Origin: Bacillota bacterium
GTDB taxonomy: Bacteria > Bacillota > Sulfobacillia > UBA995 > UBA9673
Reading direction: 5' to 3'
Assembly: GCA_003599345.1 (NCBI GenBank)
Contig: QZJP01000049.1
Span: forward strand, 1 to 57,611
Length of the DNA stretch: 57,611 nt
Numbering within the stretch: the stretch's first letter is position 1; each line of letters begins with the position of its first letter. Position numbers and translations under genes: made by a program. Positions 3,745-11,266 of the stretch are shown in pieces. The notes under the pieces were generated by a model. It had not been told where the DNA came from. It saw only the letters and a list, made by a program, of their open reading frames with translations, and did no database searches.

Positions 3745-4743
3745 TTGGCAACGCGCGGGACCGCCGGTTTCTCGCCCTACATCCTGTTCACCCGTGCCGA
3801 GTGGGCCCGTTTGCGGGCCTCGACCCCGCTCACCCTGACCCTGGAGGACCTCGAGCGTCTTCGCGGCATCAACGAGCGTATCTCCCTGGACGAGGTAGCC
3901 GAGGTCTACCTGCCTCTTTCGCGCCTTCTCAACCTGCACGTCGTCGCCGCCCAGGAGCTCCGCCGCGTGACCGAGGTCTTCCTGGGGGAGCCCGCGACGC
4001 AGGCCGGAGCGGCGTCAGCGGAGACTATCGAGGGCGGGGCCATCCCCGGGACCGCGGCGAAAGTCCCCTACGTGATAGGCCTCGCCGGCAGCGTGGCCGT
4101 CGGGAAGAGCACGACCGCTCGCATCCTGCAGGCGCTCCTCTCGCGGTGGCCGGGCCATCGCCGCGTCGACCTAGTCACCACGGACGGGTTCCTCTTCCCG
4201 AACCGGGTTCTCGAGGAACGCGGCCTGATGGGTCGTAAAGGCTTCCCCGAGAGCTATGATATCCGGCGCTTCATCCGGTTCCTCGCCGAGTTGAAGTCCG
4301 GGGTGCCCGAGCTGCGGGTTCCCCTCTACTCGCACTTCACCTACGACATCCTCCCGGATGAGTTCCAGGTCCTGAGGCAGCCGGACATCGTCATCATCGA
4401 GGGGCTGAACGTGCTCCAGACCCCGCCCGGCGCGTCCGTCTTCGTCTCCGACTTCTTCGATTTCTCCATCTACGTGGACGCCGAGGAAGCCCACATCATC
4501 CGCTGGTACGTGGAGCGCTTCCTGACCTTCGTCGGGACGGCGTTCCGCGACCCTCGCTCCTACTTCCACCGCTACGCCAGCTTGTCAACAGCGGACGCCG
4601 TCATGGCGGCGGAGCGCATCTGGCGGGACATCAACTCCGTCAACTTGAGGGAGAACATCCTTCCCACGAGAGACCGGGCGCGGCTCATCCTCACCAAGGG
4701 TCCGGACCACAGCGTCAACGAGGTCAGGCTCCGGAGGATGTGA
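3745..4743 (+). CDS. coaA: Type I pantothenate kinase
   Basis: N-term '[15 protein letters not shown]'; P-loop '[17 protein letters not shown]'; '[29 protein letters not shown]'; '[10 protein letters not shown]'. TTG start. Confidence 0.93.
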
Positions 4744-5915: not shown

Positions 5916-6548
5916 TCACGCGCGCTTCGGCCCGAGAAGCGACGCGACCAGGACGTCCGCCGCGGACACCCCGATGCGCGCCAGCTCCTCCTCGTACTCC
6001 TGGTTCACCCGCCAGCGCCCTCCGGAGTAGATGACGGCGTCCCAGGGCTGGACGACCAGATCGTCCGTTTCGAGACCGACCCAGTCGGGAGTTATGCTGG
6101 AAGAGTGCCGGTAGAGCGTGGCCGTCTTCACTTCGGTCGCCCCTTGGGCCCAGCACTCGTCGACCGCAACCCGGAGAGTCTCACCGGTCCCCGCCATGTC
6201 ATCGACCACCAGAACACGGCGGCCCTTGACAACCTCCGACGGGATGCGGCCGATGAGAGCCGGGTGCCGCCGGGTCACGATGTCGTCCTGGCGGCGCGTG
6301 ATGCGTATGGGGAAGAAATCGCGCCGGAGCATCGAGGCGATGATGGCCCCGGGAATGGCGCCACCCTTGGCGATGCCCACGATGACCTCCGGGTGGAGGG
6401 TCTTCTCGACCTCCTCGGCCAGCCGGCGGCATATCCTACCGACGTCCTCCCAGTCGATGGCCAGGACGCCGGTGTGCTCGTGATCCATGGACTTCAGGTG
6501 CTTCTTCACGGGCCCCACCCCTATGGTCGAGGCATCTTCCGGCGACAC
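5916..6548 (-). CDS. Phosphoribosyltransferase (purine PRT-like)
   Basis: PRPP loop 'RVLVVDDMAGTGETL'; 'VIVGIAKGGAIPGAIIASML'. Confidence 0.88.
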   Translation of the reverse strand: MSPEDASTIGVGPVKKHLKSMDHEHTGVLAIDWEDVGRICRRLAEEVEKTLHPEVIVGIAKGGAIPGAIIASMLRRDFFPIRITRRQDDIVTRRHPALIGRIPSEVVKGRRVLVVDDMAGTGETLRVAVDECWAQGATEVKTATLYRHSSSITPDWVGLETDDLVVQPWDAVIYSGGRWRVNQEYEEELARIGVSAADVLVASLLGPKRA

Positions 6549-6576
6549 GTGCAGGAATCGACCCTACCGCAGGGCG

Positions 6577-6594
6577 ATTATAACACGTCGTGTT
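6577..6594. promoter_or_regulatory. Minus-strand TATAAT -10 (6577-6582) abutting the palindrome AACACG-T-CGTGTT (6582-6594)
   Basis: Read directly: attataacacgtcgtgtt in the divergent PRT/Nif3 intergenic region. Confidence 0.45.
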
Positions 6595-6642
6595 GGTCAC
6601 AATGCGCCTGCGAGGGAACAGAGGGGAGAGGGGGAAGCACCG

Positions 6643-7896
6643 GTGAGCGAGGTTTCCACCCCAGGTCAAACCGGGGGCGGCGGCCCGACCGTCGCCGAAC
6701 TGGCGGCCGTGCTGGACCGTATCGCCCCACCCGCGCTGGCCGAACCGTGGGACAACGTGGGGGTGCTGGTCGGGGACCCGGAGTCCCGGCCCCGATGGGT
6801 CGCCGTGACCCTGGACCCCGCGTTCGCGCTCATTCCGGCTGTGGGCCGAGCCCTGGGCCGGGCCGCGGATCCCAGCACCACAGGTCTTGTCCCCAATCCC
6901 GGTGGAGGACCTCTGCCGGAGGGCCACGGCCTGCTTGTCGCCCACCACCCCGTGCCGTGGAGGCCCCTCTCCCGGGTGCTGGCGACCGACCCGGCCGGCC
7001 AGGTCGTATCGGAGTGTCTCCGCCGGGGCATCTCCCTCTACGCGGCCCATACAAGTTTCGATTCGGCCCCTGGGGGCCTCTCGCACGTGCTGGCCTCGCT
7101 CGTGGGTATGGCGAGCGAGGGGCGGATGCCCATCGTACCGCGAGGCCGGCACCTCAAGCTTGTCGTTTTCGTGCCCCCCGACCAGAGCGCGGCCGTCAGG
7201 CAGGCTTTGGCCGGGGCCGGCGCCGGCTGGATAGGGAACTACAGCGACACGGCCTTCGCGTCCCCCGGCCGAGGCTACTTCCTGCCCCGTGAGGGAGCCG
7301 ATCCTTTCACCGGCTCACCCGGAGTGCTCGAGGAGACGGCCGAGGAACGGGTCGAGACCATCGTCCCGGCCCACCTCCTGGACGAGGCGGTGCGTCGGAT
7401 GCTGGAGGTCCATCCCTACGACGAAGTCGCCTACGACGTCTACCCGCTTGAGAGCCACCCGTCCGTGACCAGACCCGAGCTGCTCGCCGGGATAGGCCGG
7501 ATTGGGGATCTGCCCGGGGACGGCTTGCCCCTCGACGAGTTCACCCGGCACGTGGAGCGGGCTCTCGGGCTCGCCCCGGGCGAAGCAAGACTCCTTGGCG
7601 GCCCGGCGACCCGGACCGGTCTCGTGGGGCGCGTCGCCGTCTGCCCGGGAGCCGGTGGCGCCCACGTCCGGGCGGTCGCGGCGGCGGGCGCCCACGTCTA
7701 CGTCACCGGCGACGTGGGCTACCACGATGCGGTGGGGGCGGCCGGGCTCCGGCTGGCCGTCATCGACGCCGGCCACCTGGCGACCGAGAGGCCGTTCGTG
7801 GGAGTCATGGCCACCCTGCTCAGGAAAGAATTCAGAGCCCAAGGGATTCCACTGGACATCATCGAAGTTCCGACTCCGCCAGCCGGGCTGCGCTGA
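6643..7896 (+). CDS. Nif3-like dinuclear metal centre hexameric protein (DUF34)
   Basis: 'VAELAAVLDRIAPPALAEPWDNVGVLVGDP', 'LLVAHHPVPW', 'LYAAHTSFDSAPGG', 'YVTGDVGYHDAVGAAGLRLAVIDAGHLATE'. GTG start with upstream gaggggagaggggg; the longer listed ORF (6487) is probably over-extended. Confidence 0.92.
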   Translation: MSEVSTPGQTGGGGPTVAELAAVLDRIAPPALAEPWDNVGVLVGDPESRPRWVAVTLDPAFALIPAVGRALGRAADPSTTGLVPNPGGGPLPEGHGLLVAHHPVPWRPLSRVLATDPAGQVVSECLRRGISLYAAHTSFDSAPGGLSHVLASLVGMASEGRMPIVPRGRHLKLVVFVPPDQSAAVRQALAGAGAGWIGNYSDTAFASPGRGYFLPREGADPFTGSPGVLEETAEERVETIVPAHLLDEAVRRMLEVHPYDEVAYDVYPLESHPSVTRPELLAGIGRIGDLPGDGLPLDEFTRHVERALGLAPGEARLLGGPATRTGLVGRVAVCPGAGGAHVRAVAAAGAHVYVTGDVGYHDAVGAAGLRLAVIDAGHLATERPFVGVMATLLRKEFRAQGIPLDIIEVPTPPAGLR

Positions 7897-7913: not shown

Positions 7914-8720
7914 ATGGACTCCGGATACATCCGTGCCGACTTCCGGAACCTTCTCGAGGTACAGGAATTGGACTCCGAGATTGCGAGGCGCCGGGCCGCC
8001 ATCGAGCATAGCCTCAACGACCCCGAGGTGACAAGGCTCCGGGAGCTTGTCAAGCGGGCCGCGGAGGCCGCGTCCGCCGCCAAGGAACGGGTCGCGACCC
8101 TGAAGCGGGCCATCTCGTGGGAAGAGAAGGAAGCCGACGGCATCCGCGAACAGATAACCTCCGCCGAGCGCAAGATGTATGGCGGCCATGTCGCCAACCC
8201 TAAGGAACTCGACCAGATGCAGAAGAAGGTTGAGCAGCAACGAAAGGACCTGGGCCGGCACGAAGAGGCCGCGCTCGAAGCGATGATGGAACTCGAGGAA
8301 GCCGCCCCGGAGCTCGACCAGGCCGATGCGACTCTGGCGCGGGCCGGCGAGGAGCTGGCGAAGGCCGAGGCCGAGAACAAGGCGACCGCGGCCACCCTCG
8401 AGGCCGAGATACGGGAGATAGAGCCGCGCCGCGCGGATGCGGCCGCCCGGGTTCCCGCGGGCCTCATGTCACGCTACGAGCAGATTCGCGACAGGAGGGG
8501 CGGCTTGGGCGTAGCCGCACTCACCCCTGACGGCTTGTGCGGGGCGTGCCTCATCAAGGTCCCCGCGATACTGGCCGAGACGGCCCGCAAGGGCGCTCTG
8601 GAGGTCTGCGAGAGCTGTGGGCGGCTCCTCGTGGGGCCCAAGCAGGCCCTCGACGCGGCCGGCCCCGGCGAGCCCGGCGGGCGGGACGCCACCACCGGCG
8701 GCGCCGGAGGCGGAGCGTGA
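7914..8720 (+). CDS. C4-type zinc ribbon, coiled-coil protein (DUF164-like)
   Basis: Long helical N-terminal region, then 'CGACLIKVPAILAETARKGALEVCESCGRLLV'. Confidence 0.9.
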   Translation: MDSGYIRADFRNLLEVQELDSEIARRRAAIEHSLNDPEVTRLRELVKRAAEAASAAKERVATLKRAISWEEKEADGIREQITSAERKMYGGHVANPKELDQMQKKVEQQRKDLGRHEEAALEAMMELEEAAPELDQADATLARAGEELAKAEAENKATAATLEAEIREIEPRRADAAARVPAGLMSRYEQIRDRRGGLGVAALTPDGLCGACLIKVPAILAETARKGALEVCESCGRLLVGPKQALDAAGPGEPGGRDATTGGAGGGA

Positions 8721-10444
8721 ACCCGGGGGAGGGTGCAGTCCTCACCTGCCACATCGACGGTGCGAGCCGGGGGAATCCAGGGCCGGCCGGCGCCGGAGTC
8801 GTCGTCTACGACGGGTCCGGTCGCGAGCGGCGAGCCGCCGGCATCTACCTCGGAGAGACCACGAACAATGTGGCTGAGTACCTGGCCCTGATAGAGGCCT
8901 TGCGGGCCGCGTCCGACATCTGCCGCGAGGACGGGCTCGAACGGGACCGGACCTCCGTCGTCATCCGGACGGACAGCCAGCTCGTGGCGAGGCAGGTGTC
9001 CGGCGAATACCGGGTCAAGAGCCAAGCTCTGGCGCCGCTGCTCGGCGACTTCCGCCGGGAGGCGGGGGGCTTCTACCGCGTGAGCGTTCTCCACGTGCCC
9101 CGCGAGCAGAACCGCCGGGCCGACGAGCTGGCCAACCAGGCCATCGACGACGCCTTCGGGCGGGGGAAGAGCGGGGCCAGCCCGCGGTATTCCCGGCTGA
9201 GCCACCTCGAGTGCTCCCGTTGCGAGCGGCGCCTGGACCCCGCCGAACCGCACGGCCCTTGCCCGGCCTGTGGCGCCCCGCTCCTCGCCCGCTACGACCT
9301 CGCCGGCCTCGTCTGGCCTCCCCGAGGGAACGACTGTAGCCTGGGTAACCCGGGGCAGTGCCCGGAACACAACTCCATGTGGCGCTACCACGAACTCCTA
9401 CCCGTCACCGCGCCGCAGTACGTGGTCAGCCTCGGCGAGGGTCTGACGCCCTTGGTGGCGATGGGCGGGCTCGAGCGGGAGTTGGGGCTAGGCCGGGTCC
9501 TGGTCAAGGACGACCGCCTCAACCCGACGGGGACTTTCAAGAGCCGAGGGGCTTCGGCCGCCGTCTCCCGGCTCGTCGAGCTGGGCATAGAGAAGTGCGC
9601 CATCCCCACCCAGGGCAACGCCGGTTCGGCCTTCGCCGCCTACTCGGCCCGGGCGGGCCTGAGATTCCTCACCGCCATGCCTGAGGACACCCCGGCTGCC
9701 ATCCGCGCCGAGTGCGAGGCCTACGGGGCCGAGGTCGTCACCGTGAAGGGACTCCTCCCCGACGCGGGGCGTTACGTGCGTGAGCGGGCGGCGGCCGAGG
9801 GCTGGTACGTGGCCTCCACCTTTGACGAACCCTACCGGGCCGAGGGCAAGAAGACGATCGCCCTGGAGCTTTTCGAGGCCTTTGGCTCCCGCTGGCCTGA
9901 CGCCATCGTTTTCCCCGTGGGGGGCGGGGTGGGTCTCGTCGGCGCCTGGAAGGCGGCCCAAGAGCTCGCGACGGCGGGTGTGGCCGGCGCGGCCGAGCCG
10001 CGTTCCGGCGCCACCGGCGCGGCTGGACCGGGTTCCGGCGCCTCGGGGACCACTGATGGGCGGCCCAGGCTACCCCGGCTGTTCGCCGTCCAGGCCGCGG
10101 GCTGCGCCCCGGTGGTCAAAGCCTATGGCGAGGGCCGCGACGAGACCGAGCCTTTCGCCAACGCCGAAACGGTGGCGGCCGGGCTCCGGGTGCCGTCGCC
10201 CAAAGCGGGGTTCCTCATCCTGCGGGCGTTGCGGGCCTCCGGCGGGGCGGCCGTCGCCGTGCCGGACGAAGTCATCCTCCGGACGGTGGTCAAACTCCGG
10301 CGCGAGGAGGGTCTCAACTTCTGCCCGGAGGGCGCCGCGGCCGTGGCCGCCCTGCCCGAATTGGCTCGCCGCGGCTGGCTCGACGGCTGCCGCGAGGTCG
10401 TGGTCGTCAGCACCGGCACGGGGTTGAAATACCCCTCGGGCTAG
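8717..10444 (+). CDS. RNase HI domain fused in frame to threonine synthase (fold type II PLP enzyme)
   Basis: GTGA overlap with the upstream stop. RNase H: 'HIDGASRGNPGPAGAGVVVYD', 'TTNNVAEYLALIEAL', 'RTDSQLVARQVSGEYRVKS', 'PREQNRRADELANQAID'. Threonine synthase: 'LECSRCERRL..CPACGAPLLARYDL', 'GEGLTPLV', 'KDDRLNPTGTFKSRGAS', 'PVGGGVGLVG'. One uninterrupted frame. Confidence 0.88.
   Translation: MNPGEGAVLTCHIDGASRGNPGPAGAGVVVYDGSGRERRAAGIYLGETTNNVAEYLALIEALRAASDICREDGLERDRTSVVIRTDSQLVARQVSGEYRVKSQALAPLLGDFRREAGGFYRVSVLHVPREQNRRADELANQAIDDAFGRGKSGASPRYSRLSHLECSRCERRLDPAEPHGPCPACGAPLLARYDLAGLVWPPRGNDCSLGNPGQCPEHNSMWRYHELLPVTAPQYVVSLGEGLTPLVAMGGLERELGLGRVLVKDDRLNPTGTFKSRGASAAVSRLVELGIEKCAIPTQGNAGSAFAAYSARAGLRFLTAMPEDTPAAIRAECEAYGAEVVTVKGLLPDAGRYVRERAAAEGWYVASTFDEPYRAEGKKTIALELFEAFGSRWPDAIVFPVGGGVGLVGAWKAAQELATAGVAGAAEPRSGATGAAGPGSGASGTTDGRPRLPRLFAVQAAGCAPVVKAYGEGRDETEPFANAETVAAGLRVPSPKAGFLILRALRASGGAAVAVPDEVILRTVVKLRREEGLNFCPEGAAAVAALPELARRGWLDGCREVVVVSTGTGLKYPSG
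9986..10045 (+). repeat. 30-bp imperfect tandem duplication inside the threonine synthase part
   Basis: ggcgcggccgagccgcgttccggcgccacc / ggcgcggctggaccgggttccggcgcctcg, encoding GAAEPRSGAT / GAAGPGSGAS. Confidence 0.8.
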
Positions 10445-10516: not shown

Positions 10517-10536
10517 GACGTCTAGACGTCTATAAT
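10517..10536 (+). promoter_or_regulatory. 14-bp perfect palindrome GACGTCTAGACGTC directly upstream of TATAAT
   Basis: gacgtctagacgtc (10517-10530) followed by tataat (10531-10536). Confidence 0.5.
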
Positions 10537-11266
10537 GCCGCAAAGCGGTGTCCACCCCCGGCGTTCGACGGCCATCAGAGATCACCCCTGCCGCGCTTCA
10601 CGACGCCTAACCGACGAGCAGCACGAGCAACTCAAGACGTATTTCTTCGTGTGGGCGCGGCTGCTTTTGCCGAAGCTCGTGCCTGGGGCGAATGTCGTTG
10701 TCGCTTCGAACCCACTTCTTTCGTTCATTGTGGCAGGAGCGCTGGCTGAGGCTGGTCTCGAAAACCGAGGGACTATCGTAAGGCTGGTAATGACCATGCG
10801 CGGTGGGGACAGGCCCAGAGGGGCGCACACGGAGTTTGATAACGTTAGCGTAATGCCAAGGTCTATGTGGGAGCCATGGATAGTGTTCAAGAAACCGATT
10901 GAGGGGAGAGTGCAGGACAGCCTTCGTAAATGGAAGACCGGGGGCTTTCGTCGGCCGTCCGGTGAAAGGCCCTTTGGTGATGTCATACATTCTGCGCCCA
11001 CCCAAAAGAAAGAACGCACCGTTGCGCCTCATCCGAGCCTGAAGCCTCAGGCCTTCCTGAGGCAACTGGTCAGGGGTGTGCTTCCGCTGGGTGAGGGCCT
11101 AGTTCTTGACCCCTTTGCCGGAGCGGGCTCAACGCTCGCTGCGGCCGAAGCAGTTGGGTACAGAAGCATTGGAATTGAGAAAGACCGCCACTACTTTGAA
11201 ATCGCAAGGAACGCCATCCCTAAGCTGACCAGGTTAGCCGCAAATGGAGAGGTTCAAAGCCGGTAA
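10535..11266 (+). pseudogene. N-terminally truncated DNA methyltransferase (C-terminal SAM-binding part retained)
   Basis: 'HPSLKPQAFLRQLVRGVLPLGEGLVLDPFAGAGSTLAAAEAVGYRSIGIEKDRHYFEIA' is the SAM-binding motif region of DNA methylases. No DPPY-type catalytic motif precedes it. GC is visibly lower than the neighbours. Confidence 0.6.

Follow-up and report, generated by a model that had tools for sequence, protein, structure and literature searches.

A reading frame joining RNase HI to a PRK08197-family PLP enzyme in three genera of one Bacillota family

A single gene of a Bacillota bacterium encodes an RNase HI domain joined in frame to a zinc-ribbon PLP enzyme of the PRK08197 family. The gene lies in the window, by which we mean the whole stretch of 57,611 nucleotides analysed (contig QZJP01000049.1 of assembly GCA_003599345.1). 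We consider it probable that its product is a genuine bifunctional polypeptide, in which a predicted handle-less RNase HI and a PRK08197 PLP lyase form largely independent halves and the PLP half probably acts on a substrate other than O-phosphohomoserine. The joining of RNase HI to a metabolic enzyme is already known; a PLP-enzyme partner was not found in the literature searched, which yielded no paper on an RNase H-threonine synthase fusion.

One reading frame in three genera

A preliminary description of the window had proposed one stop-free frame carrying an RNase H domain with all four carboxylates, followed by a zinc ribbon and a PLP lysine, and our analysis bore out each of these elements (Table 1). 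Pfam matched residues 9-142 to RVT_3 (7.7e-16) and RNase_H (5.4e-12), and residues 237-567 to PALP (1.8e-66). The RNase H carboxylates D14, E54, D86 and D136, the PLP lysine K275 and the ribbon cysteines C166, C169, C182 and C185 were all present, and all were invariant across the three fusions described below. The gene overlaps the preceding one by 4 bases, its GTG running into the TGA stop of that gene (GTGA), and a purine-rich stretch lies ahead of the start codon. The operon has the order Nif3-CdsZ-RnhA, and translation from this GTG would be coupled to the end of the preceding CdsZ-like gene. The CdsZ-like gene also matched the NCBIfam CdsZ profile, under its cut-off (5.4e-9), and the true start of the Nif3 gene is probably downstream of 6487. 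A DNA methylase gene (N6_N4_Mtase, a partial profile match) lies directly downstream of the fusion at 10535-11266 (+), and is absent from this place in one of the other two fusion genomes (G001).

Table 1. Positions of the fusion gene, its neighbours and related loci. Positions without a prefix are those of the window; L-numbers are our handles for loci.
Feature	Position	Strand	Details
RNase HI::PLP-enzyme fusion gene	8717..10444	+	575 aa, GTG start, TAG stop; Pfam, NCBIfam, orthologous fusions
RNase HI domain, residues 1-144	8717..9148	+	Pfam RVT_3/RNase_H; PDB matches; handle-less Rv2228c/LC11 type
Linker, residues 145-158	9149..9190	+	variable in length and sequence; no ATG/GTG/TTG
Zinc ribbon and fold-type II PLP enzyme domain, PRK08197 family	9191..10441	+	Pfam PALP, NCBIfam; labelled threonine synthase
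CT398/CdsZ-like coiled coil with zinc ribbon, upstream operon gene	7914..8720	+	Pfam CT398_CC 1.7e-16
Nif3/DUF34, upstream operon gene	6487..7896	+	Pfam DUF34_NIF3 6e-52
Orthologous fusion	L007:1132-2772	-	71% identity to window protein
Orthologous fusion	L008:1123-2838	-	67% identity to window protein
Molybdopterin oxidoreductase genes before standalone PRK08197 genes	L178:7522-9522(-), L179:4682-6727, L184:4681-6675, L187:7099-9144(-), L189:7297-9444(-)
RNase HI-PurN loci	L072, L083, L085, L086, L091, L098, L103, L105, L122, L123		RNase H at about 4001-4400 in most
RNase HI + MaoC-type dehydratase	L079:4001-4915		acidobacterium, single case
RNase HI + PhzF-type protein	L204:1528-2943; L205:1478-3082		two genomes of the window's class, low-complexity linkers
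RNase HI + UPF0047	L075:2310-3161		Armatimonadetes bacterium, single case
RNase HI + 4HBT thioesterase	L144:916-1887	-	G148, single case

The same fusion was found in two further genomes, G002 (contig 41, 71% identity) and G001 (contig 32, 67% identity), in each case over the whole protein. Together with the window genome (G000) they represent three of the four genera in the family, in separate assemblies. In both, the fusion gene again follows CdsZ-like and Nif3 genes, and the 4-base overlap of start and stop recurs. Recurrence of the whole frame, including the join, in two other genera is far beyond chance. The window derives from one draft assembly (101 contigs) of a genome of metagenome type, and a frameshift, a stop lost through sequencing error or a chimeric contig had been raised as explanations of the join; the same join in the two separate assemblies rules this out, and we give an artefact practically no probability. 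The three independent genomes instead support a true in-frame fusion. Estimated by NG86, both halves gave dN of 0.22-0.24 and dS of 0.6-1.0, and purifying selection acts on both. The linker, at 21-64% identity among the fusions and of varying length, is short and presumably flexible.

Internal initiation had also been proposed. In the window fusion, codon 127 is the last in-frame ATG, GTG or TTG before the junction and codon 221 is the next, so that codons 128-220 are start-free, as the preliminary description had noticed; the start-free run across the junction spans 93 codons in G000, 121 in G002 and 121 in G001. An internal start at the junction was therefore rejected, since no standard start codon lies near it in any of the three genomes. 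The chance of such a stretch is 0.7-3% per genome, which is weak evidence of selection because the stretch was examined after the fact. The codon at the old start site is CTG in G000 and G001 and CTC in G002; initiation at CTG or proteolytic cleavage of the fusion protein may occur.

The fusion is the sole RNase HI-type match in the genomes G000 and G002. A second RNase HI of G001 is standalone (L193:2460-2918(+)) and adjoins a second Nif3; its contig, 3 kb long, may be a stray from another organism. The fourth genus (G003, 450 contigs) gave no Nif3, RNase H or close PLP-enzyme match and is thus uninformative on the fusion.

The RNase HI half and the history of its locus

The best-matching structures for the RNase HI half were 3u3g (9.9e-28), 4e19 (2.4e-23) and 3hst, which is Rv2228c (9e-19). 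With its D-E-D-D carboxylates and its similarity to solved members, this half belongs to RNase HI of type 1, Rv2228c/LC11 subtype; it should cut RNA in RNA/DNA hybrids. In the alignment, all 23 fused RNase H proteins retained the E, D and D carboxylates, and 157 of 159 rows had the first D. The profile of the actinomycete RNase HI-CobC fusion, PRK07238, matched the RNase H half alone (121.9 bits against a cut-off of 326), the C-terminus being PALP and not a histidine-family phosphatase.

The gene order Nif3-(CdsZ)-RnhA is widespread. It is the same in G001, G002 and many other loci, and a CdsZ-like gene stands beside RNase H in many phyla. We take Rv2230c of Mycobacterium tuberculosis to be Nif3 and Rv2229c to be a CdsZ-like protein. 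No relevant paper linking RNase HI to Nif3 and a zinc ribbon turned up in a literature search. The order Rv2230c-Rv2229c-Rv2228c in M. tuberculosis matches that of the window (PMC7466739).

Unfused relatives keep the RNase H and PLP genes at different loci. Two separate genes at this locus in a relative would have spoken against the fusion; no such case was seen, and the PLP gene has probably moved. The place of RNase HI next to Nif3-CdsZ is taken in the sister family by an RNase HII/HIII-family gene (PF01351), encoded on the other strand and convergent with the pair (L282:2637-3305(+); L283:3378-4070(-)), which gives the impression that the locus exchanged one RNase H for another. The PLP enzyme of the sister family is standalone, behind a molybdopterin oxidoreductase. 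We propose that, in the ancestor of one family, the lyase gene was relocated to a position behind rnhA; the two frames would then have been joined when the stop of rnhA and the start of the lyase gene were lost, leaving the linker between them.

The class to which the window belongs is a Bacillota group; three loci were 100% identical to records of Bacillota bacterium TL1-5.bin58, Bacillota bacterium CSSed165cm_82 and Candidatus Fermentithermobacillaceae bacterium Bu31. RNase H of the Rv2228c type was present in 80 of 154 class genomes at E <= 1e-18. Beyond the three fusions, no RNase HI-PLP fusion was found in the 154 class genomes or among 80 RNase H loci from other phyla, and no relative of the PLP half stood beside RNase H in the surveyed loci. 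A junction-only query of 399 phylum genomes, a sample that excluded G001 and G002, gave full coverage in the window alone. No plasmid record covered both halves, and a search for viral relatives of the PLP half found none.

Partner enzymes of the same RNase H type

The preliminary description knew of no reason for an RNA/DNA-hybrid nuclease to be joined to an amino-acid enzyme. Two things lessen this surprise: a precedent in the RNase HI-CobC of mycobacteria and Streptomyces, and the five further partners that we found attached to RNase H of this type. At least seven different, unrelated metabolic enzymes were found as partners, always C-terminal. They include the known CobC-type phosphatase in Nocardia, Gandjariella and Actinoplanes, and PurN at ten loci, most of them labelled Phycisphaerae, Sedimentisphaerales or Planctomycetota; a literature search found no paper on an RNase HI-PurN fusion. 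The RNase HI-PurN proteins share with the window fusion the RNase H type and the C-terminal position of a metabolic enzyme, which in their case is GAR formyltransferase. The fused copy was the sole PurN above the curated cut-off in all eight PurN-fusion genomes checked, which argues that fused partners work. Long frames beside RNase H genes in GC-rich genomes (L071, L100, L216, L245) were partly extensions lacking a Pfam domain and were rejected as fusions.

The Rv2228c/MSMEG_4305/SCO2299 proteins (RNase HI-CobC acid phosphatase of actinomycetes, PRK07238) resemble the window fusion in the N-terminal RNase HI type, the operon, and a C-terminal metabolic enzyme behind a variable linker. They differ in lineage and in the partner, which in the window is a PLP lyase rather than a histidine-family phosphatase, and the window fusion falls on a separate branch of the RNase H tree. 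In this tree of 159 domains, which has few columns and many open forks, the partner labels need at least eight changes; PurN, CobC and PALP are each set apart by a single branch (SH-aLRT 99), and the PhzF fusions may represent two events. The fusion of Rv2228c and MSMEG_4305 had been reported only from actinomycetes and put down to drift. The window fusion is a second clear case, its partner being unrelated, and the survey brings in a further five partner enzymes from other lineages.

By analogy with the mycobacterial RNase HI-CobC protein, the two activities of the window fusion are most likely largely independent. Removal of CobC from MSMEG_4305 of M. smegmatis hardly changed growth or hybrid levels, and the authors concluded that the fusion reflects drift (PMC7466739). 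Compatible with independent halves is a neutral merger, in which rnhA and a downstream gene were joined by chance and fixed by drift with no gain; we give it slightly less than an even chance. Independent origins with unrelated partners, the variable linkers and the conclusion drawn for CobC favour such a merger. Its weak points are long retention of the fusion with no splitting (67-71% identity between genera), persistence of the PurN fusion in ten diverged loci, with no other PurN over the cut-off in the eight genomes, and the finding of no unfused-neighbour intermediate for the PLP partner in the loci surveyed.

The alternative is that the fusion was selected because an oligomeric C-terminal enzyme gives the handle-less RNase HI dimerisation or extra hybrid contacts, whether or not its metabolic activity matters. 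Several of the partner enzymes are obligate oligomers. The RNase H of Rv2228c, which lacks a basic protrusion, is faster with its CobC half attached (reviewed in PMC7466739), and this makes a helper role of the partner a live rival; the always C-terminal position of the many unrelated partners also speaks for it. Nevertheless, loss of CobC barely affected M. smegmatis, and 136 of the 159 surveyed RNase H proteins of this type have no partner. We regard selection for a helper as unlikely, although sequence alone fits both drift and a helper role. A broader and still more tentative idea treats RNase HI in the Nif3-CdsZ operon as a fusion hub that repeatedly acquires oligomeric enzymes at its C-terminus, either for oligomerisation or hybrid grip or because hybrid processing is tied to metabolite state; the RNase H-PLP enzyme would be one instance. 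The testable question is whether a handle-less RNase HI gains from its C-terminal partner or whether this operon position is prone to harmless mergers.

Substrate of the PLP half

The C-terminal half, with its zinc ribbon, is predicted to be a PLP lyase of fold type II from the PRK08197 group. It matched PRK08197 (NF006050) over the full length, ribbon included, with 454.8 bits against a cut-off of 303. In the tree, it grouped within the standalone orthologs (support 100/100), apart from the branch of thrB-linked ThrC (100/99). In five relatives the standalone PRK08197 gene comes immediately after one for a molybdopterin oxidoreductase; the window copy, in contrast, lies away from such a gene and is fused to RNase HI. 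A homolog in Azospirillum is found in an ABC-transporter/Ldh_2 cluster (malate/lactate-type dehydrogenase), an arrangement that suggests import and degradation of some compound more than the making of threonine.

The preliminary description had called this half a threonine synthase. The database label agrees, since NCBIfam names the PRK08197 group threonine synthase, and this counts against a changed substrate; genome context and motifs speak against the canonical enzyme. The fused domain shares the PALP fold and the PLP lysine motif with canonical ThrC (PDB 1uim/1v7c, 2d1f, 2zsj, 6cgq, 1e5x; TIGR00260), but it reached only 133.7 bits with TIGR00260, under the cut-off of 167.1. It carries STFDEPYRAEGKKT (ATFxEPYRxEGKKT) where ThrC have NSxN..RxxGQKT, a motif that, in this or a close form, is common to five solved threonine synthases and the thrB-linked ThrC. 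The changed motif presumably alters the phosphate site, as judged from threonine synthase structures. GNTxAS and PVGNAGNI are likewise missing, with GGGVGLVG at the position where most solved or thrB-linked ThrC have GNAGNI.

Homoserine dehydrogenase (PF00742) was absent in G000, G001, G002 and the sister family, in a search whose control match was obtained in 14 of 14 genomes, and homoserine kinase (TIGR00191) gave nothing above the cut-off in the same genomes. G000 is only 82% complete, so a gene missing there alone means little. Two genomes with close standalone orthologs (G004 and G005) also lack hom, which shows that its loss does not track the fusion. Relatives with hom-thrB have a different, short, canonical ThrC beside thrB.

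A true threonine synthase fused to RNase HI, in a cell that takes up or otherwise makes (phospho)homoserine, would agree with the PRK08197 equivalog score, with the solved threonine synthases as best PDB matches and with the retained PLP lysine motif NPTGTFK. Against it stand the missing hom and thrB in all three fusion genomes, the failed TIGR00260 match, the loss of motifs kept by solved and thrB-linked enzymes and the separate canonical ThrC of the hom-thrB relatives, and we consider it rather unlikely. From the motifs and the genome context, a canonical threonine synthase is doubtful; the PLP half would probably make no threonine from O-phosphohomoserine and is predicted to use another amino-acid substrate. 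We therefore mark the threonine synthase label of PRK08197 as doubtful; a literature search found no paper naming this family.

A second PRK08197/TIGR00260-type paralog, above the TIGR00260 cut-off, is present in G000 and G001 (L194:6698-8026(+); L195:5867-7138(-)), and that of G001 lies near an aldehyde ferredoxin oxidoreductase gene.
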